Assembly (NCBI GenBank): GCA_903833055.1
Contig: CAILDU010000144.1
Location: 1 to 34,312, forward strand
Direction of reading: 5' to 3'
DNA: 34,312 bases
Origin: an uncultured Verrucomicrobia subdivision 3 bacterium
Lineage (GTDB): Bacteria; Verrucomicrobiota; Verrucomicrobiia; Limisphaerales; UBA11358
Below the pieces are notes generated by a model. The model ran no database searches and was not told the DNA's origin. It worked only from the letters and a program-made list of their open reading frames with translations. Positions 395-18,290 of this stretch are shown here, piece after piece (positions within the stretch are counted from its first letter, which is position 1; the number at the start of each line of letters is the position of its first letter). A program made the position numbers and the translations under genes.

Positions 395-1663
395 TTATTT
401 CGCCGGCCGTTTGCTCCAGTAATTCGCCAGCACCGAGCCGCTGATGTTCATCCACGGAATGAAGATTGCCGCCGCCAGCCCGACCGTGCCGAGCTTGCCC
501 ATCGCGCTCGCCAGGCCGGACGCCATGCCGCCGTTTTGCAAACCGACTTCAAAGGCAATGCTGCGCGCGGAATTTTTATCGAGTCCCGCGCCTCGGCTCA
601 AAAAGTAGCCGAAGAAATATCCCGCCAGATTGTGCAGCATGGAAGCGACAAACAGCAGCGCGCCGACCTTCAATAAATTATCGCGACCCGAAGCCGTCGT
701 CATCGCTGTAACATAAAGAATGCCGACGATGGCCATCGTCGGCATGAATTTATCCAGACGCGGAAAATATTTCGTCAGCGCGTGATAAACCGTGCCGATG
801 ACGAAGGCGCTTAATAAAAATCCACCAAGGGAAATTGTCGTGAGCGTGTCGGGCGCAAAATTCTGCTGTAAAAGTTGCCAGCCGCCGAAAATCAAAAACG
901 CCAGCCACGCGACGGCCAGCGCGGCGATGGCAAAAACAATTTCCCGTCCGCGCGACGAAGCGTGTTTCAAATAATCATGCAGCAACGCCGCGCCAATCGG
1001 CACGAGCACGATTTTGATGATCTCGACCATCATCTTGAAAAAGCTGACTTCAACCATCGTGCCGGCGAGCAGTTTCATCCAGAGCGGCGTCATGATGGGC
1101 GCAATCATCGTCGTCACCGCCGTGACCGTGACCGACAGCGCAAGATTGGATTTGGCCATGTAAGCCATGACGTTTGACGCGAGTCCGCTCGAACATGAGC
1201 CGATGAGGATGACGCCCGCCGCAATCTCCGGCGGAAAACTAAAAATTTTCACCAGCGAAAATCCCACCAGCGGCATCACCGTGAAATGACAAAAAATTCC
1301 GACGAACACACCGCGCGGCGCTTTCGCCACGCCCGCAAAATCGCGCAAACTCATCTGCGTGCCCATACCGAACATCACCATCTGGATGGCGATGAGCATG
1401 ACCCATTTGTTCTTCATGTCGAAATCGCCGACGTGAAGAAAACTTTGCGGATAAATCATCGCCGCCGCGACGACCGCGATGATCCACGCCGTGAACTGAT
1501 AGCCACGAAAATTTTTGGAGAAGCGAAGCGTAATCGCCAAAGCAACGGTAAGAACAACCAAGGTTGGTTGCCAAATAGCGGAATCATTCATCAACCATGT
1601 TGATGCAACAATGGCAACCGTCAGCAAAATCCAGCCACCATAAACTTTAGCTAACGGATACAT
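395..1663 (-). CDS. BASS-family (bile acid:sodium symporter-like) transporter
   Basis: A 422-residue multi-spanning inner-membrane protein of the BASS/SBF family, which couples uptake of organic anions to sodium. The two crossing-helix signatures are visible: GSCSSGLASNV near residues 155-165 (usually GxxPGG..SN) and EVGLQNGGMAS at 372-382, where the E, Q and N are the usual sodium ligands. It is longer than the common 300-330 residue members because of about 75 extra N-terminal residues forming two or three additional helices. It is the last gene of the minus-strand operon and begins 33 bases after the racemase-fold gene. The context suggests the substrate is a sugar acid or oxo-acid handled by the kinase and RuBisCO-like protein; that is inference, since family members also carry pyruvate, pantothenate or sterols. 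Confidence 0.88.
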   Translation of the reverse strand: MYPLAKVYGGWILLTVAIVASTWLMNDSAIWQPTLVVLTVALAITLRFSKNFRGYQFTAWIIAVVAAAMIYPQSFLHVGDFDMKNKWVMLIAIQMVMFGMGTQMSLRDFAGVAKAPRGVFVGIFCHFTVMPLVGFSLVKIFSFPPEIAAGVILIGSCSSGLASNVMAYMAKSNLALSVTVTAVTTMIAPIMTPLWMKLLAGTMVEVSFFKMMVEIIKIVLVPIGAALLHDYLKHASSRGREIVFAIAALAVAWLAFLIFGGWQLLQQNFAPDTLTTISLGGFLLSAFVIGTVYHALTKYFPRLDKFMPTMAIVGILYVTAMTTASGRDNLLKVGALLFVASMLHNLAGYFFGYFLSRGAGLDKNSARSIAFEVGLQNGGMASGLASAMGKLGTVGLAAAIFIPWMNISGSVLANYWSKRPAK

Positions 1664-1696
1664 TTTGAATTCGTGAAAATTAGTGCAATTCGTGTC

Positions 1697-2356
1697 TCAC
1701 AAAACTGTCGCCAGATAATCCACCGCGATTCCCGGACTCGCCAGAATCGGCACGCGTTTATCTTCCGCCGACAATGTTTCGACCACCCGCGCCATCGAAG
1801 CCTGCGCCAGCACAATCACATCCACTTGCTGCGACAATTCTTTCAGCGCCGCCGCCACTTTCGCGTCATGCGTTGCGCCGTCACCGGCCATCAACGCTTC
1901 AAACGCGCCTTCGACGAGCTTGGAAGTAAGTTCAATTTTCTTTTCGGCTAACGCGGCGCGGCGTTCAATTAATTCCGCCGTCGGTTCGAGCGTTGTGGAA
2001 AGCGTGGCGACGACGCCAATTTTTTTGCCAGCGGCCACGGCTTTGTCCGCCATCGGCAAATCCACGCGCAGCACGGGCGTGGGAATCCCTTTTGCGCCCG
2101 CTTCAACCGCCAGCCCGATGGACGAGCATGTGACCATAATGTAATCCGCACCGGCATAAGCCGCCGATGTCAGATAGCCCGCCACGCGCATTTCGATGGT
2201 CGGAGTGATACGCCCCGCCTCGCGGATGCCGCGCACCAGCGAATCATCCACGATATTGAAGACCTCCACGTTCGGTAATTTCTCTTTGCACAGCGCCGCG
2301 AACACCGGCACGAGCGTGGCCGACGTGTGAACCAATCCAAGTCGTTTTTTCTTCAT
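1697..2356 (-). CDS. Asp/Glu/hydantoin racemase-fold protein with one catalytic cysteine
   Basis: A 219-residue cytoplasmic protein of the aspartate/glutamate/hydantoin racemase superfamily. The first half-site is present (MVTCSS, Cys77), as is the family loop IGVVATLSTTLEPT at 113-126. The position where the second catalytic cysteine is expected reads VLAQASMAR (183-190), with no cysteine. Two-base racemization is therefore unlikely, and a one-cysteine or cysteine-independent reaction (decarboxylase, isomerase or lyase, as known for arylmalonate decarboxylase and maleate isomerase relatives) is more plausible. The start at 2356 is chosen because its ATG overlaps the TGA of the kinase gene (ATGA), which implies translational coupling. 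A longer frame to 2464 would run deep into the kinase. Its partners suggest action on a carboxylated sugar intermediate, but the reaction cannot be read from the sequence. Confidence 0.82.
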   Translation of the reverse strand: MKKKRLGLVHTSATLVPVFAALCKEKLPNVEVFNIVDDSLVRGIREAGRITPTIEMRVAGYLTSAAYAGADYIMVTCSSIGLAVEAGAKGIPTPVLRVDLPMADKAVAAGKKIGVVATLSTTLEPTAELIERRAALAEKKIELTSKLVEGAFEALMAGDGATHDAKVAAALKELSQQVDVIVLAQASMARVVETLSAEDKRVPILASPGIAVDYLATVL

Positions 2357-3714
2357 GAATTTCCTTTGAGCACAGTTTGAAAATAATTTTCCGCACCAAC
2401 CTGTCCGCCCTTGAAAACAACTTCCATTTTGTCCACCGGCGAATTTGGCGCGTGCGCCCGACACAGCGGCGCGCCCGGCGTCAGCGACGCAATCATTTCC
2501 AACGCCTCAATTCCCAATGCCCGCGCGGCGAAACTCGACGTGTCGCCGCCCGCGATGACCAGACGTTGAACTTTGGCTTGCGCCAGCGCGCGGCGCAAAA
2601 CTTTGCCCAGCGCCGTGCCGAGAATCTTGGCGCTGTTGTTTTTCAGCTTCGCCACGATGTGTTTGTCCGAACCGCTTTTCGTCGTGTGGACAATCACGCT
2701 ACGTCCGCTTTGCAGAAATTTTATTACCGTATTTGTGGCGCGCTGGATTTCCGTGCGGGAATTTTTTGCCGCCAGTTTTTCAGAGTTCAAAGCGACTTCA
2801 ACAAAGCCGTGCTTCAACACCCACGCGATTTGCCCGCTCGTCACCGGCGAACAACTGCCGGAGCCGACCAGGATTTGTTTTGTAGGAGACGAGGGAACGA
2901 GCCTCATTTTTCCCAACTTTAATTTAAGACTCCTCACGTCGTCTCCGACAGACCAAAACTTCGCCAGCGCGGTTTCAATTCCTGACGAACCCACTGAAAA
3001 CAAAGGTCGTTTTGCAGCCGCATATTTTTCAAGCACACCGCCGATGCGTGCAAGCTGTTCGGTGGTCAACGCGTCAAATAAAACTACGTCCGGCTTTTCG
3101 GCGAGAGTTTTTTGGAGCGCGGAGTGGCATTCGTTTTCCGGCAGCGCAACTTTTAGGATGTCGAATAGCGCAATTTTCTTGTTCGTCTGCTGCGACAAAT
3201 GCAGCCGCAAATCCGCCTCGGTCATCGGTGTAATCGGATGTTTGCTGATAGACGGATGACAGTCGAGTCGGTGAATCGCGCCGGTGCTGCCGATGCCGTA
3301 GCGCGCGAAGTGCTGGCCAAAAACCGTGTAACGTCCAAGCGCGGGCGCTGCGACAAGCAACGGAATAAATTTTGCCGGAAAAATGTTTGCCGCCACATCC
3401 AGCGCGCAGCCAATGCTGCCAATCTTCGGCGACGAATCAAACGTGGAGCAGACTTTGTAGTGAACATGCCGCGCGCCGAGTTTCTTGAACGCGAGTAATG
3501 CAGGTTTGAGTTCGCGTTTCAATGCGTCCGGTGCGAGCGAACGCGTTTTGCCAGCGATGCCGATGGCTTGCAATCCGGGAAACTTCTTCAACTGCGCGGG
3601 CGTGGGCGGCTGGATAAAAAGTGTCGTGCGGATGCCCGCGAGCGTGAGTTGCTCCAGCGCATCCGTCGAGCCGGTGAAATCGTCGCCGTAAAATGTGAGA
3701 AGCAGTTTGCTCAT
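2353..3714 (-). CDS. Four-carbon acid sugar kinase family protein (DUF1537)
   Basis: A 453-residue cytoplasmic kinase with the two-domain DUF1537 architecture. The N-terminal substrate domain begins with FYGDDFTGSTD (8-18) and includes KVCSTFDSSPKIGSIG (87-102). The C-terminal nucleotide domain shows GSGSCSP (284-290), AGGDTS (388-393), PGAPLC (413-418) and FKGGQVGAENYF (434-445). Known members phosphorylate C4-C5 acid sugars and their 3-oxo forms at the terminal hydroxyl (erythronate, threonate, 3-oxo-tetronate, 3-oxo-isoapionate), preparing them for decarboxylation. The ATG at 3714 shares one base with the TGA of the upstream RuBisCO-like gene (TGATG), so the two are translationally coupled. 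A TTG one codon earlier is possible but less likely. The pairing points to a phosphorylated 3-oxo acid as the shared intermediate. Confidence 0.88.
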   Translation of the reverse strand: MSKLLLTFYGDDFTGSTDALEQLTLAGIRTTLFIQPPTPAQLKKFPGLQAIGIAGKTRSLAPDALKRELKPALLAFKKLGARHVHYKVCSTFDSSPKIGSIGCALDVAANIFPAKFIPLLVAAPALGRYTVFGQHFARYGIGSTGAIHRLDCHPSISKHPITPMTEADLRLHLSQQTNKKIALFDILKVALPENECHSALQKTLAEKPDVVLFDALTTEQLARIGGVLEKYAAAKRPLFSVGSSGIETALAKFWSVGDDVRSLKLKLGKMRLVPSSPTKQILVGSGSCSPVTSGQIAWVLKHGFVEVALNSEKLAAKNSRTEIQRATNTVIKFLQSGRSVIVHTTKSGSDKHIVAKLKNNSAKILGTALGKVLRRALAQAKVQRLVIAGGDTSSFAARALGIEALEMIASLTPGAPLCRAHAPNSPVDKMEVVFKGGQVGAENYFQTVLKGNS

Positions 3715-4961
3715 CAACTCTTCGCGCCAAATTTTTCCACGGACTTTTGGAGTTCAGGATATTTCGCCGCCGCCTGCTCCATCGTCAAACCTTCGACCGC
3801 TGCTTCCCACCATTTTTGGAGCGAGCGCACGCCCGCCGCCGGGCCGTCCGGATGCGCCATGATGCCACCGCCCGCCATGTAAAGCAGGTCAACAGTCTTC
3901 GTGCGGCGAAAAGTTTCACAAGCTTGTCCACCCCATTGACCGGATGAAACAACGGGCAACACCGACATTCCACCGAGCAGCGGCTTGGCGCAGGCTTCCA
4001 TCGAGCGCACCACGGAATCGTCGCTCTCCCAGAATTTATTCGCGATGCCGTTGACGTGAATTTGATCCACGCCCGCGAGTCGCCAGAGTTTTTGATACGC
4101 AGGAAATTCGATGCCCAGCAGCGGATGCCGGTTCAACATTCCCCAGCCGTTGCGGTGACCATGAATTGCCAGCGCGCCGTTATCGCAAATTTTTTTCGCG
4201 CCCGCGAGACCGACGCTGTTCAGCGAAATCATCGCGCACGTTCCGCCTGCCAAAACAATTTTTTCATAATGCCGCTGCATCGTGTCCATTTCATCGCTGA
4301 TGTTAAACGCATGCATCACCTTCTTGCCGGTGCGGTCAGCATGATCGTTGATGACGCGCATGATGGCATCCACACGCGCGTCAAACGGCGAGTGCGGTGG
4401 ATTGGCCATCAACTCGTCGTCCTTGATGAAATCAATTCCCGCTTCGGCCAACACTTTTACCAGCTCCGCCGTCTGCTGCGGCGACATACCAATGCTCGGC
4501 TTGATGATCGTGCCAATGAGCGGACGATTTTCCACGCCGGTCAATTTTCGCGTTCCCGCGACGCCAAATTTCGATCCGCGAAAATATTTGGCAAATGACA
4601 GCGGCAATTCCACGTCCATCAGTTTCAGCCCAGTGAACGCAGTGATTTCGTAGAGGTTGCCCTGAATTGTCGAAACGAGCGCGGGCAAATTGTAACCCAT
4701 GTTTTCCAACGACCACGACACGAGGATTTCCGCCCGCTGAAATTTTCCTGAAGCTGATTTTGCGCCCGGCAAACTCGGCACGGTGACGCTTTCATGCAGC
4801 GTGATTTTTTCCACGCGCGCGGCGAAGCGTTGTTTCAATTCTTCCGTCTCACCCGGCACGGCGACAAAAGTTCCCGACGATTGCTCGCCCGCGAGCGTGG
4901 CGGCGGCTTTTTCCACAGCCAGCGGCGTTTCGATGAGATATGTGGCAACGATTCTTTCCAT
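3714..4961 (-). CDS. RuBisCO-like protein (form IV large-subunit superfamily)
   Basis: A 415-residue protein of the RuBisCO large-subunit superfamily. Retained RuBisCO features are IIKPSIG (Lys154, equivalent of K175), DFIKDDE (Lys180 for carbamylation, Asp182 and Glu183 as Mg ligands; K201/D203/E204), HGHR (His269, Arg270; H294/R295), DQIHVNG (His302; H327) and Lys309 (K334). Changed positions are K177 to Ser156, H298 to Trp273 and the SGG phosphate loop to SGQ (340-342), so it is not a CO2-fixing enzyme. Form IV proteins act as enolases, isomerases, or decarboxylases/transcarboxylase-hydrolases of 3-oxo-isoapionate-4-phosphate in D-apiose catabolism; the coupled DUF1537 kinase favours the last role. 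Methionine-salvage enolase is the main alternative, but no salvage genes are nearby. The ATG at 4961 is preferred because the family fold begins at MERIVATYLIETP; the 86-codon upstream extension (frame to 5219) overlaps lacZ and looks non-coding. Confidence 0.9.
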   Translation of the reverse strand: MERIVATYLIETPLAVEKAAATLAGEQSSGTFVAVPGETEELKQRFAARVEKITLHESVTVPSLPGAKSASGKFQRAEILVSWSLENMGYNLPALVSTIQGNLYEITAFTGLKLMDVELPLSFAKYFRGSKFGVAGTRKLTGVENRPLIGTIIKPSIGMSPQQTAELVKVLAEAGIDFIKDDELMANPPHSPFDARVDAIMRVINDHADRTGKKVMHAFNISDEMDTMQRHYEKIVLAGGTCAMISLNSVGLAGAKKICDNGALAIHGHRNGWGMLNRHPLLGIEFPAYQKLWRLAGVDQIHVNGIANKFWESDDSVVRSMEACAKPLLGGMSVLPVVSSGQWGGQACETFRRTKTVDLLYMAGGGIMAHPDGPAAGVRSLQKWWEAAVEGLTMEQAAAKYPELQKSVEKFGAKS

Positions 4962-5011: not shown

Positions 5012-8413
<3,402 letters not shown>

Positions 8414-8428
8414 AATGCGCTTTGGTTT

Positions 8429-9250
8429 TTATCCGCGCAAGCCAACCATTTGCATCAAGCGGTCCGTTTGCGTGTAAGCTTCCGTGACCCATTCGACAAT
8501 ACGTTTTGGGTCGGGCGAATATTCCAGTTCAATGGAAACCACGCCGTCAATTTTCAATTCCTTGATGGCTTGCAGATACGGCTCGAACTTCACAATGCCG
8601 CGTCCGGGCGGAAGATCGCCGTGAACTTTGCCATCACAATCGCTGATATGAACGTGGATGGCTTTACCTTTCAATTTTTTCAAATCCAGCGGACTGCTGT
8701 CGGACAGCACCAGATGACTTACGTCAATGTTTGCGCGCACACGCGGATGTTTGCAATCGTTCACGAAGCGCACCATCTCGTCAATGTTGTTGAGCAAACT
8801 CAAGCGGAACGGTTCAAGTTCGAGCGCGATATCCACGTTCTTCTTTGCGGCATAATCGCCAATTTCGCGGCACGTCTCGACGGCCCATTGCCATTGCACG
8901 GCGGGCGGAATGACTTCGCGCTGCCAGATATATTCGCCGAGCACGAGCAGGATATTTTTCGCGCCAAACTCGGCGGCGAGGTCAACGAACTTTTTGCAAC
9001 GCGCGACGTGAAAGGCGCGAACCGGATCGTTGAAATCAATCAGTCCGGTGGCAACGACAACGAGCGAAATGATGGGCAAATTTTCTTTGGCGCAGGTGCG
9101 CGCGATGAGCAGCTTTTCCTTTTTGGAAAGCGTCATCGCTTCCGTGAAGATGTCCACGGAGTCGAAACCGATTTTGGCGATGTGTTTGAGGCCGGTGGCG
9201 GTGTCCACGCCGGCTTGACCAAACGCGCTGTTGATGATGCCGAGTTTCAT
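8429..9250 (-). CDS. Sugar phosphate isomerase/epimerase family TIM-barrel protein
   Basis: A 273-residue xylose-isomerase-like TIM barrel (AP endonuclease 2 superfamily). Likely metal and catalytic residues are Glu144 or Glu146 in IALELEPF, Asp176 and His179 in ANIDVSHL, His199/His201 in HVHISDCDG and Glu241 in SIELEYS, the pattern of ketose 3-epimerases and inosose or sugar isomerases. The substrate is a free or phosphorylated ketose or cyclitol and cannot be fixed from sequence. It is the last gene of the operon that begins with the desaturase-Rieske-reductase fusion, starting 21 bases after the epimerase-dehydrogenase fusion. Gfo/Idh dehydrogenases and TIM-barrel isomerases commonly act in succession in inositol, rhizopine and rare-sugar pathways. 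Confidence 0.88.
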   Translation of the reverse strand: MKLGIINSAFGQAGVDTATGLKHIAKIGFDSVDIFTEAMTLSKKEKLLIARTCAKENLPIISLVVVATGLIDFNDPVRAFHVARCKKFVDLAAEFGAKNILLVLGEYIWQREVIPPAVQWQWAVETCREIGDYAAKKNVDIALELEPFRLSLLNNIDEMVRFVNDCKHPRVRANIDVSHLVLSDSSPLDLKKLKGKAIHVHISDCDGKVHGDLPPGRGIVKFEPYLQAIKELKIDGVVSIELEYSPDPKRIVEWVTEAYTQTDRLMQMVGLRG

Positions 9251-9271
9251 GGTTGTGTAATTTAGTTTTGG

Positions 9272-11407
9272 TTAAGAAATAATTTCCGAAATTTTCACCG
9301 CACGTTTTTGCTCCGCGCTCAAATACGCCGCGTCCACGAGTGCCATGGTTTTCAAATTATCGCGTCCGCTGATGGCCGGTTCTTTGCCGGTTTCGAGCGC
9401 AACCAGCAATTGGCCCATAGTTCCAGCGAAGGCGTCAGGAAACCAACTTCCACTCCATTTCGGTTCGTGAAAAGCTTTGTCACCTTTGCTCGCGTAGCGA
9501 ATTGTTGAAGCGCTCGTGTAAGGATCTTTGCACCAGCCGAGATCGCCGATGGCCAAGCCATTCAAACCTTCGATACGCCATTTGATGCCGATGTCGCCGA
9601 GACAATTTTCTTTCGCTGGACCAGTCCAAGTATCATCAATCGCCACGCAGCGCAGGCCGTTCGTGTATTCCAAAATATAAGTGCAAATGCCATCCGTATG
9701 CGGAAACTTCGTGCGCGGGTCGGGGCGCGTGCTGCAAAAAATATTTTCCGGATCGCCGAACCAATAGCGAAAGCAGTCAATGTGATGAATGGACATCACG
9801 CGCAACGTGACCCAGCCGAGTTCCGCCTGCCACGGCATCCAATGCGGAATTCCACGCATGTCAATCGTCGCGAAAACCGGTTCGCCAATCGTGCCGTTCG
9901 TGAGCAACGTTTTTCCGGCGCGCACCGACTGGTCGTAACGCATGTTCTGGTTCACGGCGAGCACGATACCAGCGCGCTCGCAAAGCTGGACAGCTTCGAG
10001 CGCCTCGGTGTAATTCATGCCCAAAGGTTTTTGTGCGAGAATGCCTTTGACGGTTTTGCGTTCGCACGCGGCTTTGATGAGCGCAAGCTGCGCGTTCGGC
10101 GGCACGGCGATGTCGAGAACCTCGATGGATTTGTCGTCGAGCAACTGTTCATAGCTGTCGTAAACTTTCGGAATGGCGTGGCGCGCGGCAACCTTCGCCG
10201 CATTTTCCCGCGAACGCGACGCAATGGCGACCGGATTGAAACCAGCCTTGCGATAGCTCACGAGATGGCAATCGCTCACGATGAAGCCGCTGCCGAGAAT
10301 GCCGATGCGGAAATCTTTTTTCGACGGCAACGACGGATGAATGTTTAGGTCGATGTGGTGAAAATTTTTTGGTTTCGCGGTGGAGAATTTATGCACGGTT
10401 GTTTGGCGATATGTCACGCCCGGACGCAACACGATGTTGCCGAGTTGCGGCGCGTTCACGCCATTTGGATAGTTTTCACATTCCAGACAAAGCGCCGTGT
10501 GCTGACCGTAACTTCGCCCAGATTTTCCCGTCAAAGTGCCATCAAGCGAAACGCCGGTGTAAAGTTGCAGGCACGGCTCGGTGCTGGAGATTTCCATCAC
10601 GCGACCGCTGTGCGGATCAAAAAGTTTGGCAACCCGCGCAAGTTCGGAATTTTCGCGGCGAATAAAATAAACATCACCGTGATTTTTCCAGAGACCGGGC
10701 AACGCCTCGCCAATGCTTTTGGCGCGGGTGAAATCGTTGGCGTGACCGGCAACCGATTCGCGGCGGTCAAGCAGCGTCATTGTTTCGTCAGCGGGCACAA
10801 AATCGTCTGCGAAGATTTGTAAAATATGGTCGTCAATGCGTCCGCTGCCTTCGCCCGCCAGATTGAAATAAGAATGATTGGTTAGATTCAACGGCGTGGC
10901 TTGGTCGGCGATAGCTTCGTATTCAGTCACAAATTCATTCGCATCCGTCAGCGAGTAAGTGACGCTGGCTTGGACGTTTCCCGGATAACCTTCTTCGTCA
11001 GCGGGAGAAAGATAACTCAAGCGCAGCCGTTCTTTTCCATCTGAAATTATTTCCGCGCGCCAGACCCGTTTGTCAAAACCAACCGAGCCACCGTGGAGGT
11101 GATTCGGCGGATTGTTGACCGCAAGCGAATAGCTTTTTCCATCCAGAGAAAAATTTCCATGCGTTAATCTTCCGGCGACGCGGCCGGTGATGCAGCCGAA
11201 ATACGGATGGCCAGCGAGGTATTGTTCCAAGTTGTCGAAGCCGAGAACCACATCATCCATGCGACCATTTTTATCTGGAATATGGAGTTGCGTAACGATG
11301 CCGCCGTAAGTAATAACCTTGAGAACAAGCCCGTTGGTATTGGTCAAAGTGTATTCGTCAATGCGCTCGCCCGCCGGTATTTTTCCGAATGCACGTTGCT
11401 GAATCAT
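9272..11407 (-). CDS. Fusion of aldose 1-epimerase (GalM-like) and Gfo/Idh/MocA dehydrogenase
   Basis: A 711-residue cytoplasmic fusion. Residues 1-342 are a complete aldose 1-epimerase: NPPNHLHGG (His105), NLTNHSYFNLAG (His178) and the catalytic glutamate in CLECENYPNG (Glu309), ending with the usual LRPGVTYRQTTVHKF. Residues 343-365 are a short linker that resembles the N-terminus of stand-alone dehydrogenases of this group. From 366 the Rossmann fold begins (FRIGILGSGFI), with the Gfo/Idh lysine motif AQKPLG (Lys460) and His541/His542 in the C-terminal alpha/beta domain. The epimerase would supply one anomer and the dehydrogenase oxidise it with NAD(P). The start ATG overlaps the TGA of the preceding gene (ATGA). 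Loss of a stop between two adjacent genes is the simplest origin; a sequencing error is possible but would have to remove a stop without shifting the frame. Confidence 0.88.
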   Translation of the reverse strand: MIQQRAFGKIPAGERIDEYTLTNTNGLVLKVITYGGIVTQLHIPDKNGRMDDVVLGFDNLEQYLAGHPYFGCITGRVAGRLTHGNFSLDGKSYSLAVNNPPNHLHGGSVGFDKRVWRAEIISDGKERLRLSYLSPADEEGYPGNVQASVTYSLTDANEFVTEYEAIADQATPLNLTNHSYFNLAGEGSGRIDDHILQIFADDFVPADETMTLLDRRESVAGHANDFTRAKSIGEALPGLWKNHGDVYFIRRENSELARVAKLFDPHSGRVMEISSTEPCLQLYTGVSLDGTLTGKSGRSYGQHTALCLECENYPNGVNAPQLGNIVLRPGVTYRQTTVHKFSTAKPKNFHHIDLNIHPSLPSKKDFRIGILGSGFIVSDCHLVSYRKAGFNPVAIASRSRENAAKVAARHAIPKVYDSYEQLLDDKSIEVLDIAVPPNAQLALIKAACERKTVKGILAQKPLGMNYTEALEAVQLCERAGIVLAVNQNMRYDQSVRAGKTLLTNGTIGEPVFATIDMRGIPHWMPWQAELGWVTLRVMSIHHIDCFRYWFGDPENIFCSTRPDPRTKFPHTDGICTYILEYTNGLRCVAIDDTWTGPAKENCLGDIGIKWRIEGLNGLAIGDLGWCKDPYTSASTIRYASKGDKAFHEPKWSGSWFPDAFAGTMGQLLVALETGKEPAISGRDNLKTMALVDAAYLSAEQKRAVKISEIIS

Positions 11408-12297
11408 ACGCGTTTTTTGGCCGCTTCAAAACATTCGCGCGCGATCTGCGCATACACGAGCGCCTGCGCGTAACGGTCGGACTCCTCGCGCAACGTGCCA
11501 TCGGGCAGGGAAAATTTCCGTCCGTAATAGTAGTCAGGCGAAAGAATTTCCGGCGCGAGAACAAGATAGTCGCCCAGTTTGGCTGAAGCCAAAAAACCCG
11601 CCATCGCGCGCGTCCACATCTCGCGGAAGTGAGCCAAAAAATTATGCGCGCCAAAAATTTGCGGCACGTTGGATTTTCCATCGCCGATGTCCACCTGCAT
11701 GCACGCGGTGTTGCCGATACGTCCGTGCATAAAACGCACGCGGTCAAAAATCGGCTGCATCGCGCGCCACTTGGCTTCAAGGTCGCCGTAAGGCAATTCC
11801 TGTCCGGTGTAGAAATGGCTGAAATCGCCGTTGAAGCGCACTTCGGGAATCCGCTGCGTCAATTGAATCGTGCGCCACGCGTCCTGCGTAATCGTCGCGC
11901 GATGGGTTTCGATGTAGAGCGGAAAATCAATTTGCGCCGATGCTTTCAAAATGGAATGCACGAGCGCGTCCATTTCGGCATCGCTTTCAAAACCGCTGCC
12001 GACGTGAACAGTTCCCGCTTCGTGACCGAGCGATTTTAATTTTCGCGCTAATGCTTCTGCATCCGTCGGTGAATCAATTCTTCCGCTGCCAGCCGAACCA
12101 ATTCCGACGCGGCGGCACAGTTCCGGGTCACCATCTTGCACGCCTTCAAAACTCCTTTCCTTCAAGCAGGCCATGGCTTCTGCGCCTTCTAACTGCGGCC
12201 AGATGGAATGCGCCGGCAAATCCATAAGCGTGCCGAGGTTGAGATAAATTTTCAGCCGGGGCGGCAAATTGGAACCGTCGTTGAGATTTTTGGGCAT
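11404..12297 (-). CDS. AP endonuclease-2-like TIM-barrel sugar isomerase/epimerase
   Basis: A 297-residue TIM-barrel protein related to xylose-isomerase-like sugar epimerases. Candidate metal ligands are Glu130 (YIETHRAT), Asp158 and His161 (NGDFSHF), His191 (MHGRIGN) and Glu250 (APEILSP). It is a more divergent member than the second TIM-barrel gene of the operon, and the two share no obvious identity beyond the fold, so they probably act at different steps. The start at 12297 is preferred: it follows the stop of the upstream oxygenase gene by 2 bases, whereas the longer frame to 12390 would overlap that gene by about 90 bases. Its TGA overlaps the ATG of the epimerase-dehydrogenase fusion, so the three genes are tightly coupled. 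The substrate is not known. Confidence 0.82.
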   Translation of the reverse strand: MPKNLNDGSNLPPRLKIYLNLGTLMDLPAHSIWPQLEGAEAMACLKERSFEGVQDGDPELCRRVGIGSAGSGRIDSPTDAEALARKLKSLGHEAGTVHVGSGFESDAEMDALVHSILKASAQIDFPLYIETHRATITQDAWRTIQLTQRIPEVRFNGDFSHFYTGQELPYGDLEAKWRAMQPIFDRVRFMHGRIGNTACMQVDIGDGKSNVPQIFGAHNFLAHFREMWTRAMAGFLASAKLGDYLVLAPEILSPDYYYGRKFSLPDGTLREESDRYAQALVYAQIARECFEAAKKRV

Positions 12298-12299
12298 AA

Positions 12300-14558
12300 T
12301 TAAAATTCGTCGAACGCGATTTGTTTGGGCGACACTTCCAATTCTTTTAGCATCTGGATTGCCGCCTGAATCATCACCGGCGGGCCGCACAAATAAAATT
12401 CCGCAGCGGCGGGACTGGAATGTTTATCCAGATGTTCGCGCTTCAAAACTTCGTGAATCAAACCCGTGTGCGAAGTCCAGTTGTCTTCCGGCTGCGATTC
12501 GGACAACGCCAGATGATAACTAAAATTCGGAAAACGCTTGGCGAGGCCTTCAAAATAGTCGCGGTAAAAAACTTCCTGCAACGAACGCGCGCCATACCAG
12601 AAGCTGATTTTGCGTTTGCTGTTTTGCGTTTCGAGCAAATTTGAAATGTGCGAACGCAACGGAGCCATGCCGGAACCACCACCGAGATAAACCATTTCGT
12701 TCTGCGTGGGCTTGATGTGAAATTCGCCGAACGGCCCGATGGCGGTGACGGTGTCGCCAGGTTTCAGCCGGAGCATATACGCCGAACCTGCACCCGCGTT
12801 GCAAGCCTGACCGCGTGGCGGCGTGGCGATGCGGATGTTGAAACGAAGCTGTTTGTCCACCGCCGGATTGGTCGCGAGTGAGTAATTGCGGCGGATGGGA
12901 ACTTCGTTTTCGCTTTTAAAATCAAAGACGTGTTGCTCTTCCCAAACTTTTGCGAACGGTTGTTTGACCTCGATTTCGCGGAACTTGACTTCTTTGTAAG
13001 CTGGAATGTTCAACTGCAAATAATCGCCGGGCTGATACTTCACGGCGGATTCCGCGTCCACCGGCTCGAGCACGAGTTCCTTGATGAACGTGGCGACGTT
13101 GTCATTGCTGACGACGCGGAAACGATACGTTTTCTGCGACGCAACTTTCGGCGGCGTAAGATTGATGAAGATTTTCCCATCGGTGACGCGCACAGGAAAA
13201 GTTTGTAGGCCAACGCAAACCGGCTTGCGTTTGGGCACGCCATCGGTGACATCGAAACGTCCGTTGTGTTTTGGACATTCAATCAAATTTCCTTTTACCA
13301 AACCGGCGGCGAGATGCGTGTTGCCGTGCGTGCAGATTCCGTCTGTGGCGTAAAATTTCCCATCGGCGGTGCGATAAACGGCGTAAGTTTTTTTGTCGCG
13401 GTCGAAACGGACAACATCTTCCACGCTCAAATGGTCAGCGGCGCAAACTTCAATCCAGCCGTCAATCACCGCGCGGCCGTCGCCAGTGATTATCTCTTCA
13501 TTTGGCGGCGCTTCCTTGCGGTCGGTCGGCGTCGGAATTGCACGTTTGACGTGATAAGCCGGGTCTTTCACTTGCCGCAAAACAGCCGGAATAATTTCGC
13601 GCCACGCCTCCATCAAACTATTATACGGCTTCGGCATGTCAGGCTTGACCAGCTCGTGCAATTTGGGCAGCGCGTGATACGGCACGAGCGGAAACATGTG
13701 ATGCTCGACGTGATAATTCATGTTCCAATACAAAAACCGGTTGATGGGATTCATGTAAACTGTCCGGCAATTCAGGCGATGGTCGAGGACGTTTTCCGCA
13801 AGGCCGGCGTGCTGCGTGTAACCGTAAATCGGCATCAGCCAGCAGCCCCAAAGATTCGGCAGACCGATGAACATCAACGGCAGAAAACTGTGCTGATAAA
13901 CCGCCAAGGCAGCAACCGAGCCGTAAATTAAAACGTAAATGCGCGCGTGGAAAAAAACTTTCTTGTGTTCGGATTCGGGAATGTAAGTGAGTTCTTCCGG
14001 TGTCAATTTTCCGGTGCAATGCAGGAGCACATTGCGGACGTAAATTGGAAAATTTTGAAGGTTGAAAAAACTTTTAACGAACACCTTTAAATCCGGTGGA
14101 CGCGGCACGGCAATTTCGGGATCGCGACCGACGATAATCGTGTCGCTGTGATGTCGCGTGTGGCTCCAGCGCCACGGCGTAGATTCGCGCAGCACCATGA
14201 AAGACGCGATTTCGTAAAGCGCATTGTTCATCCAATCCGTTTTGAACGCCGTGCCGTGGCTGGACTCGTGCCAGCGCGAATCGGAGGTCGAAGCGTAAAG
14301 CACGCTGTAAATTCCAAACGGAAGCAGCGCCCACCAACTGCCCCACCAATAGCAACCCCAGACGCCGGTCGCGATGAGCAGCGCGAACCAAATAATCGTG
14401 TCGCGAATCGCCGGTCCGTTCCGGCGACCGAGCAGTTCACGCATTTTTTCTTTCGGAACCGGCGAGGCATACCACGTGGCCTCGGCCAATCCGTTTTCAA
14501 TCGCCAGGTCACTATCTTTGCCCACGAGACTGTAATCGCTTAATCGAATTTCACTCAT
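12300..14558 (-). CDS. Three-domain fusion: fatty-acid-desaturase-like diiron oxygenase, Rieske ferredoxin, NqrF-like reductase
   Basis: A 752-residue membrane protein joining a whole electron-transfer chain. Residues about 40-330 are a fatty acid desaturase/hydroxylase domain with helices near 54-90 and 205-245 and histidine boxes HESSH (97-101), HTRHH (133-137), His250 and HVEHH (283-287), which hold two irons. Residues 365-467 are a Rieske domain with CTHG (Cys409, His411) and CPKHNG (Cys428, His431). Residues 475-752 resemble the NqrF reductase: FAD site RNYSLAT (557-563), RIATPPRG, GGGSGMAP (626-633) for NAD(P)H, CGPP (724-727) and a C-terminal FDEF. The layout equals rhizopine MocD, MocE and MocF in one chain; those proteins O-demethylate a methyl-inosamine. 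With sugar isomerases and a dehydrogenase in the same operon, O-demethylation or hydroxylation of a sugar or cyclitol is plausible; lipid desaturation is the alternative. Confidence 0.9.
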   Translation of the reverse strand: MSEIRLSDYSLVGKDSDLAIENGLAEATWYASPVPKEKMRELLGRRNGPAIRDTIIWFALLIATGVWGCYWWGSWWALLPFGIYSVLYASTSDSRWHESSHGTAFKTDWMNNALYEIASFMVLRESTPWRWSHTRHHSDTIIVGRDPEIAVPRPPDLKVFVKSFFNLQNFPIYVRNVLLHCTGKLTPEELTYIPESEHKKVFFHARIYVLIYGSVAALAVYQHSFLPLMFIGLPNLWGCWLMPIYGYTQHAGLAENVLDHRLNCRTVYMNPINRFLYWNMNYHVEHHMFPLVPYHALPKLHELVKPDMPKPYNSLMEAWREIIPAVLRQVKDPAYHVKRAIPTPTDRKEAPPNEEIITGDGRAVIDGWIEVCAADHLSVEDVVRFDRDKKTYAVYRTADGKFYATDGICTHGNTHLAAGLVKGNLIECPKHNGRFDVTDGVPKRKPVCVGLQTFPVRVTDGKIFINLTPPKVASQKTYRFRVVSNDNVATFIKELVLEPVDAESAVKYQPGDYLQLNIPAYKEVKFREIEVKQPFAKVWEEQHVFDFKSENEVPIRRNYSLATNPAVDKQLRFNIRIATPPRGQACNAGAGSAYMLRLKPGDTVTAIGPFGEFHIKPTQNEMVYLGGGSGMAPLRSHISNLLETQNSKRKISFWYGARSLQEVFYRDYFEGLAKRFPNFSYHLALSESQPEDNWTSHTGLIHEVLKREHLDKHSSPAAAEFYLCGPPVMIQAAIQMLKELEVSPKQIAFDEF

Positions 14559-14674
14559 GCTGGTTCAGTTTTGCGGCCGTTTCATCAATGGGTTTTCCGC
14601 AGGGTAGTCCAAACTCTTCGCGGGACAAGTCAGGAGCGTTGGCGGCGTGACTATTGACAGTTCTCTTAAAAGAA

Positions 14675-14705
14675 TTGCCAGATTTAGCAAGGCGTCTTTT
14701 ATAAC
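14675..14705 (+). promoter_or_regulatory. Possible promoter of the rhaT-like gene
   Basis: TTGCCA at 14675-14680 and TATAAC at 14700-14705 resemble sigma-70 boxes, separated by 19 bases (longer than ideal), 20 bases before the ATG at 14726. The divergent gap 14559-14725 must also hold the promoter of the oxygenase operon, for which I see no convincing boxes. Confidence 0.3.
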
Positions 14706-14725
14706 GAATCAGGTAACCTACGCGC

Positions 14726-15796
14726 ATGAACACCGTTCCTGCCAATCCATTGCTCGGCATCGCGCTGCACGCCATCGGCGCGCTTTTCGCGGCGACCTGC
14801 TACATGCCGCAAAAAAAAGTGCGCGGCTGGTCGTGGCAATCTTACTGGCTCGTGCAAGCGTCTTTTTGCTGGCTGCTGCTGCCAATCATTGGCGCGTGGC
14901 TGACGATTCCTGATTTAATCGCGGTGCTGCGCGAAGCGCCGACGAGCGCAATGTGGCATTCGTTTTTTCTTGGTGCAGCTTACGGCATCGGCGGCACAGC
15001 TTTTGGAATTTCAATTCGCTACATCGGCTTCTCGCTCACTTACGCCATCGCCGTCGGACTTTCGGCGGTTTTGGGAACGCTCATTCCGCCGTTGGTCAAA
15101 GGCACTTTGGACGACGTGCTGCACAAAGTCGGCGCGGATTGGGTAATGGCCGGAATTGTCGTGGGCGTATTGGGAATCGCCTGCGCCGGCTGGGCGGGCT
15201 GGCTGAAGGAAAAAGATTTAACCGCGCAGAAAAGTTGCGGCGAATTTTCTTTGAGCAAAGGCCTGTTTCTCTCGCTGCTCGCGGGCGTGCTGTCGGCGGT
15301 TTACGGTTTTGCGCTGGAAGCGGGAACGCCCATTGCCGATGTCGCTTCGGCGCACGGCGCGGGAATTTTTCGCGGCAACGTCGTTTACATTTTTTCCAAT
15401 ACCGGCGCATTTTTGACCACGGCGATTTTTTGTCTCTGGCTGCACGCGCGGCACAAAACGATTGGCGAACTCGTGGAACTGCCCGCTGGTCCGGAAAAGT
15501 CAGCGTTGCCCGTGAATTTTCTGATGGCCGCCGTCACCGGACTTTTTTGGTATGGCCAATTTTTCTTTTACAACCTCGGCCATGTGAAACTCGGTGAGAA
15601 ATTTGCGTTTTCGAGCTGGGCGATTCACATGATTATGCTCGTGCTGTTCAGCACCCTGCTCGGCGTCATCCTGCGCGAATGGCGGCAATGCCGTCGCCTG
15701 ACGCACACGACCGTCGCCTTCGCGCTGCTGGTATTGGTGACGGCGGTCATTTTGCTGACGTATGGCAACCACGTTGGCGAGCTGGCGACAAAATAA
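14726..15796 (+). CDS. rhaT: RhaT-family L-rhamnose/proton symporter-like transporter
   Basis: A 356-residue inner-membrane protein with about ten hydrophobic segments, of the RhaT branch of the drug/metabolite transporter superfamily. Recognisable family stretches are the start (GIALHAIGALFAATCYMPQKKVRGWSWQ), the GAAYGIGGTAFGISIRYIGFSLTYAIAVG region, and AHGAGIFRGNVVYIFSNTGAFLTT. E. coli RhaT (344 residues) imports L-rhamnose with a proton. Rhamnose is abundant in pectic rhamnogalacturonans and would fit the neighbouring galactosidase, but no rhamnose isomerase or kinase is in the window, so another 6-deoxy or methylated sugar is possible. It is transcribed divergently from the oxygenase operon across 167 bases, an arrangement that often means shared control. 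Confidence 0.88.
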   Translation: MNTVPANPLLGIALHAIGALFAATCYMPQKKVRGWSWQSYWLVQASFCWLLLPIIGAWLTIPDLIAVLREAPTSAMWHSFFLGAAYGIGGTAFGISIRYIGFSLTYAIAVGLSAVLGTLIPPLVKGTLDDVLHKVGADWVMAGIVVGVLGIACAGWAGWLKEKDLTAQKSCGEFSLSKGLFLSLLAGVLSAVYGFALEAGTPIADVASAHGAGIFRGNVVYIFSNTGAFLTTAIFCLWLHARHKTIGELVELPAGPEKSALPVNFLMAAVTGLFWYGQFFFYNLGHVKLGEKFAFSSWAIHMIMLVLFSTLLGVILREWRQCRRLTHTTVAFALLVLVTAVILLTYGNHVGELATK

Positions 15797-15863
15797 TTTG
15801 TCCGCCGCGCTGATTTTGCAGCCTGACATTGCACGGAGCGGCAAGTTCGTTTAGCTTCGCGCC

Positions 15864-16640
15864 ATGCAATTTTTCGGCAAATTAAGTCTGGTCACGCTGA
15901 TGACAACGGCGTTGCTCGCGGTCAACGGCTGTCTGCCGTCCGACTCCAGTCCGCTGGATGAGGAAAAGGAACCGCACTTCGTTCTCGGCAAAAGCCGTGT
16001 CAACGCCATGGATTACACCGGCGCCGTCGAGGCGTTTGGCGAATCGCTGGAGGCCAATCCGCATTCGGCAGCCGCGCATTTTCAACTCGCTTGTTTGTTC
16101 GACCAAAAAGAATCCGATCCCGCCGCCGCGATTTATCACTATCAGGAATTTCTCCGACTGAATCCCAAAGCCGACAACGCCGAAGTCATTAAGCAACGCA
16201 TTTACAGTTGCAAACAACAACTCGCCGCCGACGTGCTGCCATTGCCAAGCGCGCCCGCCGCGCAAAAACAATTGGAAGATCTCGCGGAAAAAAATCATCA
16301 ACTCTCGGATGAAAATGAAAAGTGGCGCGCGTATTACGCCGCGCAACAAGCCGCGCAAAAAAATTCGCCGACGACGTTGCCGAACAATCTTGCGCCAACC
16401 GGCAACCTGTCGCCGGATGATGTTTCCACCGCGCCCGCAAATGTGCCCGCGACCAAACCGGCACCCGCTGCGCGCGCATCCGCAGCCAAGCCGCGCACGC
16501 ACACCGTGACCGCTGGCGAAACGCTCGCTGCCATCGCGCGCAAATCCGGCGTGAGCCTCGCCGCGTTGCAAGCGGCCAATCCCGGCGTCACCCCTAAAAA
16601 ATTGCACGTCGGCCAAACCTTGAATTTGCCGCCGCAATAA
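15864..16640 (+). CDS. TPR and LysM lipoprotein
   Basis: A 258-residue predicted lipoprotein. The N-terminus has a hydrophobic stretch ending in LAVNGC, so Cys23 is the likely lipidation site. Residues about 38-115 form one or two tetratricopeptide repeats (NAMDYTGAVEAFGESLEANP, then AAIYHYQEFLRLNP). A charged helical stretch (about 130-162, coiled-coil-like) and a low-complexity Pro/Ala/Thr linker follow. The last 47 residues are a LysM domain (HTVTAGETLAAIARKSGVS ... LHVGQTLNLP), which binds peptidoglycan. It is therefore likely an outer-membrane lipoprotein that touches the cell wall through LysM and a protein partner through the TPR. It lies 19 bases before the next gene and may be co-transcribed with it. 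No precise process can be assigned. Confidence 0.85.
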   Translation: MQFFGKLSLVTLMTTALLAVNGCLPSDSSPLDEEKEPHFVLGKSRVNAMDYTGAVEAFGESLEANPHSAAAHFQLACLFDQKESDPAAAIYHYQEFLRLNPKADNAEVIKQRIYSCKQQLAADVLPLPSAPAAQKQLEDLAEKNHQLSDENEKWRAYYAAQQAAQKNSPTTLPNNLAPTGNLSPDDVSTAPANVPATKPAPAARASAAKPRTHTVTAGETLAAIARKSGVSLAALQAANPGVTPKKLHVGQTLNLPPQ

Positions 16641-16659
16641 AATTGTTCCCGTAATTTTC

Positions 16660-17457
16660 ATGCCCGCCCGATTGACATTCATCGCCATCGCCGCCTTTTG
16701 GCTGACGATGAATGTCCTGCTCTGGCGCGCGGAATTTGGCGTGCATAGCGGCGAAACGCCCGTGCCCATTGAACTGATCTGGCGGAAAATTCTGACCGCA
16801 CCGGACGCGTCGTCCTTGAGCGTCTATCAAAATCGCGATCGCATGGGCTACTGCGAATTTGCCACCAGCATCGGTCAGGAAATGGCCGCAGTGGACACGG
16901 ACAAACCGCCGCCCGAAGGTCTCGTCACGCGTGCCGGCTATCAGATTCATCTCGCCGGCAACGTCGCGCTCGACAACTTCACCAACCGCATAAAATTTGA
17001 TGGGCGCGTGCAATTTTCCTCGACGCGCGCGTGGCGCGAAGTGAATTTCAAAATCAGTTCGCGCACGACCGCTGTGGAAATTCATTCTGTCGCCACCAAC
17101 AATCTGGTGCATTTGAAAATCACCAGTGCCGGCGCGGTGCTAGAAAAAAATCTTACTTTTGCCGAACTGCAAAATCCCAATACGTTGCTGCGCGCGCTCG
17201 TCGGCAATTTTGCGGATTCACTTTTTAGCATGATGGATTTGCCGGACATCGCCAGCACCTCGACGGCGCAAAAATTGGCATGGCGCGCCAGCCGCACGCG
17301 CGTCAAAATTGGCACCGAAGCCGTGCCCGTCTATCGCATCGAAACCGATTTTCTCGGCCATCCCATTTTAATGGACGTCAGCACGCTCGGCGAAATTTTG
17401 CGCGTGGAACTGCCCGGCAACATCAGCGCCCGCATTGATGAGTGGAGCAAACCATGA
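16660..17457 (+). CDS. Hypothetical exported or membrane-anchored protein coupled to an ABC ATPase
   Basis: A 265-residue protein not recognised as any named family. It starts with a hydrophobic segment (LTFIAIAAFWLTMNVLLW) that is a signal anchor or uncleaved signal peptide; the rest is soluble, with alternating polar/hydrophobic strands (for example RTTAVEIHSVATNNLVHLKITSAGAVL broken by short turns), suggesting a beta-rich periplasmic domain. Its TGA overlaps the ATG of the following ABC ATPase (ATGA), so the two are made together and it is probably an accessory part of the same transport or envelope system. A role as periplasmic substrate carrier or sensor is a guess. Confidence 0.78.
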   Translation: MPARLTFIAIAAFWLTMNVLLWRAEFGVHSGETPVPIELIWRKILTAPDASSLSVYQNRDRMGYCEFATSIGQEMAAVDTDKPPPEGLVTRAGYQIHLAGNVALDNFTNRIKFDGRVQFSSTRAWREVNFKISSRTTAVEIHSVATNNLVHLKITSAGAVLEKNLTFAELQNPNTLLRALVGNFADSLFSMMDLPDIASTSTAQKLAWRASRTRVKIGTEAVPVYRIETDFLGHPILMDVSTLGEILRVELPGNISARIDEWSKP

Positions 17458-18185
17458 TTGAACTCGACCATTTGGTAAAAAATTTCGGCGACCTAATCGC
17501 CGTCAACGATGTTTCGCTGAAAATCGCGCGCGGCGAATTTTTTGCCCTGCTCGGCCCGAACGCGGCGGGCAAGACGACGATGATAAAACTGTTGACTGGC
17601 TTGATTAAACCCACATCCGGCTCCGCGCGCATCTGTGGTTTTGACATCCAAACGCAACCGCTCGAAGCGCGGCGGCGGCTCGCTTACGTTCCCGATTTTC
17701 CGTTTCTTTACGACAAGCTAACCGCGTGGGAATTTTTCCGTTTCACCGGACAATTATTCCAGCTCGACGCCGCGCGCATCGAAAAAAATTCCCGCGAGCT
17801 CGTCGCGCGGTTTCACCTTGCCGAGTTTGTTGACCGCCCGCTCGAAGGCCTTTCGCACGGCACGCGCCAGCGTATCGCCATCGTGTCCGCGCTGCTGCAC
17901 GACCCGGAAGTTTTTGTGATTGATGAGCCGATGGTCGGCCTCGACCCGCAGCACGCGCGTGTGGTGAAAGACGTTTTGAAGGAACGCTCGCTCGCGGGCA
18001 TGACCGTGCTGATCTCCACGCATCAATTGAGCATCGCCGAGGAAATGTGCGACCGCATCGGCATCATCAACGGTGGCAAACTCATCGCCGTCGGCACCCG
18101 CGATGAACTGCGGCAGCAAAGCGGTTCCGCCGGCGCGCTGGAGGAAATTTTTCTTTCGCTCACCGCGGCAGCGGACGCGAAATAA
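17454..18185 (+). CDS. ABC transporter ATP-binding protein
   Basis: A 243-residue ABC ATPase of the ABC-2 exporter type (CcmA/drug-export-like). Walker A is GPNAAGKTT (34-42), the signature is LSHGTRQR (133-140, a variant of LSGGQ), Walker B is VFVIDEP (153-159) and the switch histidine is His190 in ISTHQ. It starts at the ATG that overlaps the preceding stop; a start at 17442 is less likely. No permease is adjacent. The large exporter-type permease at 30852-32570 lacks an ATPase beside it and is the obvious candidate partner, although 12.6 kb away. Substrate unknown. Confidence 0.92.
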   Translation: MIELDHLVKNFGDLIAVNDVSLKIARGEFFALLGPNAAGKTTMIKLLTGLIKPTSGSARICGFDIQTQPLEARRRLAYVPDFPFLYDKLTAWEFFRFTGQLFQLDAARIEKNSRELVARFHLAEFVDRPLEGLSHGTRQRIAIVSALLHDPEVFVIDEPMVGLDPQHARVVKDVLKERSLAGMTVLISTHQLSIAEEMCDRIGIINGGKLIAVGTRDELRQQSGSAGALEEIFLSLTAAADAK

Positions 18186-18290
18186 GTCAAACCGCTTTCT
18201 TCACCGGCACTTCGGGGTTCACCTGCGTGATGGGTTTTTCGCCGCACAGTTCGTCTTGAATTTTCCCATCATTCCGGCGAAGGTTTGCCG

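Follow-up and report, generated by a model that had tools for sequence, protein, structure and literature searches.

Why should a RuBisCO-like protein (RLP) be encoded together with a sugar-acid kinase, a protein of the racemase fold and a sodium symporter, and on which compound would such a set act? The question is raised by a 34,312-nucleotide stretch of DNA (the window) that makes up one whole contig (C144) in the 2.75 Mb draft genome of an uncultured Verrucomicrobia subdivision 3 bacterium; absences from this genome are soft because the draft is only 86% complete. Head to tail on the minus strand lie genes for the RLP (3714..4961, 415 amino acids), a DUF1537 (four-carbon acid sugar) kinase (2353..3714, 453 amino acids), an Asp/Glu-racemase-fold protein (1697..2356, 219 amino acids) and a BASS-family sodium symporter (395..1663, 422 amino acids). 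The junctions are those given in a preliminary description of this DNA: RLP stop and kinase start have one base in common (TGATG), the kinase and racemase-fold genes overlap by ATGA, and 33 bases separate the latter from the symporter gene. Pfam matches to RuBisCO_large and RuBisCO_large_N, to SBD_N and NBD_C, to Asp_Glu_race and to SBF each exceed the gathering score. The operon is divergent from a gene for a LacZ-type beta-galactosidase and is followed, at 1-392, by an ABC-type sugar permease gene that is cut by the contig edge and has a frameshift (or sequencing error) near base 30-66; this is the broken permease mentioned in the preliminary description, and it lies outside the conserved unit. 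Elsewhere in the window, two fused proteins are encoded at 9272-11407 and 12300-14558, an aldose 1-epimerase/Gfo/Idh oxidoreductase and a protein with fatty acid desaturase, Rieske and reductase domains.

The four genes had been proposed to act as one functional unit whose order should recur in relatives, and it does. GTDB genomes were scanned by RLP similarity and, in the best 80 RLP loci, the kinase, racemase-fold and symporter genes follow the RLP gene with order and direction kept in 69. The grouping is not a matter of chance and its order is deeply conserved. A contig end truncates four of the remaining 11 loci; in four from Dyadobacter the racemase-fold and symporter genes are inverted nearby, and three deviate. 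The 80 loci come from Bacteroidota, Verrucomicrobiota, Planctomycetota and Balneolota, with one record titled Williamsia that may be misbinned; a Rufibacter plasmid also carries the four-gene set, adjoining a pectinesterase gene. Mean column identity of the racemase-fold protein across the operon phyla is 65%, and the protein therefore very probably has a single orthologous function throughout. At two loci (L059 and L048) the kinase gene is not beside that of the RLP and adjoins an apiosidase gene instead, on G117 contig C9 and G108 contig C5. Split transketolase genes occur near the RLP operon in L035, L072, L077 and L109, accompanied by a sugar isomerase-like gene in three of these loci and by a glycerol-kinase-like FGGY kinase gene in L109; they possibly mark a non-oxidative route for apiose alongside the operon.

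Among named NCBIfam models, the RLP best matches OiaX (3-oxo-isoapionate-4-phosphate decarboxylase, NF042437; 515.8 bits, below the curated cut-off of 700) and the kinase best matches OiaK (3-oxo-isoapionate kinase, NF042436; 417.3 bits, also with a cut-off of 700), in keeping with the earlier view that acid-sugar chemistry of this type is involved. The OiaX cut-off is narrow, since RLPs at apionate-type loci likewise fall below it (472-518 bits). The RLP scores 209 bits against RuBisCO_large, its nearest solved chain being 3nwr, and the kinase belongs to the DUF1537 family (SBD_N 184.2 bits, NBD_C 123.6 bits). A methionine-salvage enolase, an identity named beforehand as a refutation of the earlier view, was rejected: enolase models give 130-169 bits versus 516 for OiaX, with MtnW (TIGR03332) at 130 against a cut-off of 513.6. 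As judged by alignment, the RLP active site is intact. It keeps 16 of the 18 RuBisCO catalytic positions compared, invariant in 93 sequences, namely E26, T31, N102, T151, K154, K180, D182, E183, H269, R270, H302, K309, S340, G341, G365 and G366 (E60, T65, N123, T173, K175, K201, D203, E204, H294, R295, H327, K334, S379, G380, G403 and G404 in RuBisCO numbering), the two departures being K177 to Ser and G381 to Gln. RLP genes of several congeners (L028/L015, L016, L019, L029 and L032) carry in-frame insertions of about 20-36 codons in one loop, after codon ~330. In the three looked at, the DNA folds into strong hairpins (MFE -37 to -67) whose sequences differ, resembling palindromic repeat elements that the gene tolerates; the window copy is free of any such insertion.

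OiaK and OiaX belong to the D-apionate pathway (Carter et al. 2018, as relayed by PMC6302742 and NCBIfam names). RLP/kinase pairs of Shinella, Cupriavidus, Microvirga and Halalkalicoccus, about 50% identical, are accompanied by a KARI-like protein and by ABC, TRAP or GntP transporters; none of these loci has a racemase-fold or BASS gene, and the one in Microvirga encodes a confirmed ApnL lactonase (899 bits, cut-off 750). From its chemistry and context, the KARI-like protein is probably the apionate oxidoisomerase ApnO. This probable ApnO has no homologue better than E 2.7e-4 in the 51 operon genomes. Homologues (E < 1e-80) were found in the relatives G075, G077 and G087, whose RLPs come without a racemase-fold gene, beside the RLP gene in the first two and elsewhere in G087. 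In the RLP tree, a single clade (100/100 support) unites those RLPs that do have a racemase-fold gene. Taken with this clade, the absence of the probable ApnO from genomes with the operon and its presence where the racemase-fold gene is absent suggest that the racemase-fold protein stands in for the enzyme from which the apionate pathway obtains its keto acid.

Aceric acid (3-C-carboxy-5-deoxy-L-xylose) is a rare branched sugar acid of rhamnogalacturonan II (RG-II), a pectin domain that is conserved across plants and also carries apiose. Unsupervised clustering of operon neighbours singled out one further family as dominant, that of a secreted GH127 protein, which at least 31 loci have within 10 kb; in 19 it is encoded directly upstream of the RLP, on the same strand and with a gap below 250 bp. 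A representative scores 1202.5 bits against the NCBIfam aceric acid hydrolase model NF049879 (cut-off 950), and BT1003, also of GH127, is a characterised aceric acid hydrolase (PMC10850190). Further RG-II neighbours comprise an alpha-D-galacturonidase (1548 bits, cut-off 1300) and BT0996-like, GH141 and BT_1020-like proteins, and 45 of the 63 loci with full flanks have an RG-II-specific enzyme within 10 kb. The plant cell-wall setting proposed earlier is supported. Within the window itself no RG-II enzyme adjoins the operon; the hydrolase of this genome (908 bits against the cut-off of 950) is encoded on contig C71, where the cluster at 8210-19091 (L131, G000 contig C71) also holds a galacturonidase-like protein, other RG-II-type genes and a Gfo/Idh oxidoreductase. 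The last of these also comes after the BASS gene in L060.

A hydrolase of at least 885 bits was present in all 50 other RLP-operon genomes searched, above the cut-off of 950 in 45 and at 885-917 in the rest; those of Verrucomicrobiota and Planctomycetota, the window genome included, fall just below the curated cut-off. Among 247 evenly drawn random Bacteroidia, the hydrolase occurs in 11 and the RLP in 4, all 4 being among the 11 (p = 2e-6). For 97 relatives of the window genome, in which hydrolase scores are bimodal (>700 or <510 bits), 21 have both, 2 the RLP only, 4 the hydrolase only and 70 neither, giving a Fisher p of 2.9e-15 that is nominal, as the test ignores shared ancestry; within the genus of the window genome the corresponding counts are 19, 0, 3 and 27. 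Hydrolase and RLP are mostly encoded on different contigs in these relatives, so the association is not just one of shared DNA. The hydrolase occurs without the RLP in 7 of the 11 random Bacteroidia and 4 of the 25 relatives, and hence the operon pathway would not be the only fate of aceric acid. This comparative association makes it highly probable that aceric acid is the substrate of the operon. On a Croceibacterium plasmid (L168:7175-11528), a GH127 gene that is not of the aceric type immediately precedes genes for an RLP, a kinase and a GDSL esterase; it was considered as an independent aceric acid case and rejected, the GH127 scoring only 87 bits.

The racemase-fold protein scores 64.7 bits against Asp_Glu_race (gathering score 31). 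It has two cysteines (C23 and C77), only C77 being invariant, and the second catalytic cysteine of the family is replaced by Q185 (LAQASM in place of LGCGGM); C77 and Q185 are invariant in 40 aligned sequences, and the label 'one-cysteine' applied earlier is right as far as catalysis is concerned. An AlphaFold2 model (pLDDT 95) matches aspartate racemase 1jfl_A with a Z of 21.3 and an rmsd of 2.4 over 206 residues; the single window sequence found no match in the PDB, and a profile search did. With an invariant Gln at the second catalytic Cys, two-base racemisation, for which two catalytic cysteines are expected, is unlikely. Aldose-ketose isomerases work by a one-base proton transfer between C2 and C1, and we know of none on the racemase fold. 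RpiB is an aldose-ketose isomerase with a single Cys (PMC4783025). By this analogy an isomerase role is proposed for the racemase-fold protein, as the least certain step of the pathway.

The symporter scores 119.5 bits against SBF (gathering score 24.3), and its best solved matches are the bacterial BASS transporter sequences 8oyf/3zuy (2.9e-52). It reaches 202.8 bits on the PanS pantoate transporter model NF047939 (cut-off 400) and 193 bits on the NCBIfam bass model (cut-off 326), below both. ASBT_NM, of the same family, crystallised with bound pantoate, which is a small hydroxy acid (PMC10645422). The earlier idea that the acid itself is taken up rather than apiose is supported, the acid being most likely aceric acid.

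On these grounds we put at about 0.7 the probability that the four genes, taken as a whole, form a catabolic operon for aceric acid; the comparative basis is the families themselves, the conservation of the operon, its near-obligate link to the hydrolase, the absence of the probable ApnO and the intact RLP active site. In the proposed pathway, the sugar acid would be freed by the secreted GH127 hydrolase, whose gene adjoins the operon in many Bacteroidota and lies apart from it in the window genome, and the BASS symporter would import the anion. The racemase-fold protein, with C77 as base and Q185, would then shift the C2 proton to C1 and so convert the aldose to a 2-ketose, HOOC-C(OH)(CHOH-CH3)-CO-CH2OH. 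This ketose is 3-oxo-isoapionate, HOOC-C(OH)(CH2OH)-CO-CH2OH, with one additional methyl group, a difference small enough for an OiaK-like kinase and an OiaX-like RLP to fit it directly. The kinase would phosphorylate the CH2OH (C1) beside the ketone, and the RLP, as a decarboxylase of the phosphorylated ketose, would remove the carboxylate via a Mg2+-stabilised enediolate to leave a 5-deoxypentulose 1-phosphate. A class II aldolase encoded outside the operon would yield DHAP and acetaldehyde, a cleavage that has been proposed for 5-deoxyribulose 1-phosphate (PMC6302742); class II aldolases are present in 51 of 51 operon genomes, which is necessary but weak evidence. The isomerase, kinase and RLP reactions and their order, drawn from chemistry and homology, are somewhat likelier to be right in detail than wrong. 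Literature searches for a published bacterial route of aceric acid catabolism, or for aceric acid together with RuBisCO, returned nothing relevant. The odds seem to us evenly balanced that this is a new pathway with two new enzyme functions, a single-Cys racemase-fold aldose-ketose isomerase and an RLP acting on ketose-aceric acid phosphate, possibly by transcarboxylation/hydrolysis to lactate and 3-phosphoglycerate.

The best matches to OiaK and OiaX would also be explained by a variant of the D-apionate/apiose pathway, in which 3-oxo-isoapionate is the substrate of kinase and RLP, and the racemase-fold protein and symporter are accessories. Apiose too is a constituent of RG-II, apiosidase is present in 47 of the 51 operon genomes, and in two genomes the kinase gene adjoins it. 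Apiosidase lies within 10 kb of the operon in only 4 loci, however, against at least 31 for the aceric acid hydrolase, and is undetected in four operon genomes, the window's own included; RLP/kinase loci with the probable ApnO and ABC, TRAP or GntP transporters do without the racemase-fold and BASS genes. None of the 51 operon genomes has the probable apionate oxidoisomerase, which would make 3-oxo-isoapionate and which does occur in relatives without the racemase-fold gene; for this reason the substrate is most probably not derived from apiose. The apionate pathway, to which the preliminary description had related the genes, was rejected as the best explanation after the probable-ApnO and apiosidase tests and is now improbable, aceric acid taking its place. 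An operon for some other RG-II acid (3-deoxy-D-lyxo-heptulosaric acid, Kdo or a uronic acid) is more improbable still: BT_1020-like and galacturonidase genes are also found nearby, but such enzymes occur in 7 to 10 loci against at least 31 for the aceric acid hydrolase, and those sugars are not branched beta-keto acids that would fit OiaK/OiaX chemistry.

With aceric acid as substrate, two of the individual reactions can be read differently. The RLP might be an OiaT-like transcarboxylase/hydrolase, which would move the carboxylate to the former ketone carbon and hydrolyse the bond, giving lactate and 3-phosphoglycerate with no loss of CO2. Such a route would need no aldolase, and the operon has no aldolase gene; the RuBisCO catalytic residues are present, and chemistry of this type has been described for a Xanthobacter RLP on the apionate analogue (PMC6302742). 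Against it, the RLP matches the decarboxylase model OiaX better than any other named one, although no OiaT model was among the NCBIfam hits of the RLP for comparison, the two activities not being separable by sequence; we regard this as possible but less likely than decarboxylation. Similarly tentative is the proposal that the racemase-fold protein is an epimerase of some intermediate, or comes into play after the RLP, leaving the aldose-ketose step to a general sugar isomerase. Known members of the fold do racemise or epimerise, yet the invariant Gln at the second catalytic Cys does not fit a two-base mechanism, and neighbour clustering revealed no other isomerase recurring at high frequency beside the operon.

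The hydrolase that frees aceric acid was already known, and we found no account of how bacteria use the acid afterwards; the operon offers a candidate route that is complete and open to testing in soil and plant-associated bacteria that can be cultured. If true, this route would extend the RuBisCO superfamily by a new substrate and function, and the Asp/Glu racemase fold probably by a new reaction; it would also suggest that exchanging the enzyme responsible for the keto acid allows a kinase/RLP pair of the apionate type to be put to a new use.

Relative to RG-II degradation by Bacteroides thetaiotaomicron, operon genomes resemble that system in holding a BT1003-type hydrolase and other RG-II enzymes, whereas the operon itself would supply an intracellular step after release. 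The racemase-fold protein has the fold of the Asp/Glu/hydantoin racemase superfamily (Z 21 to 1jfl) and its first catalytic cysteine, but differs in the invariant Gln and is only 9-20% identical to solved members. The symporter belongs with PanS and ASBT_NM in the BASS family, of which ASBT_NM binds pantoate, while scoring well below the PanS and bass model cut-offs. Unlike the D-apionate pathway, the window locus lacks the oxidoisomerase, the ApnL lactonase and a sugar ABC/TRAP system; in their stead it encodes a racemase-fold protein and a BASS symporter, with a link to aceric acid hydrolase. In both, the DUF1537 kinase gene is adjacent to that of the RLP with translational overlap, the RLP keeps the RuBisCO catalytic set, and the proposed substrate would have a ketone neighbouring a tertiary alcohol that bears the carboxylate.
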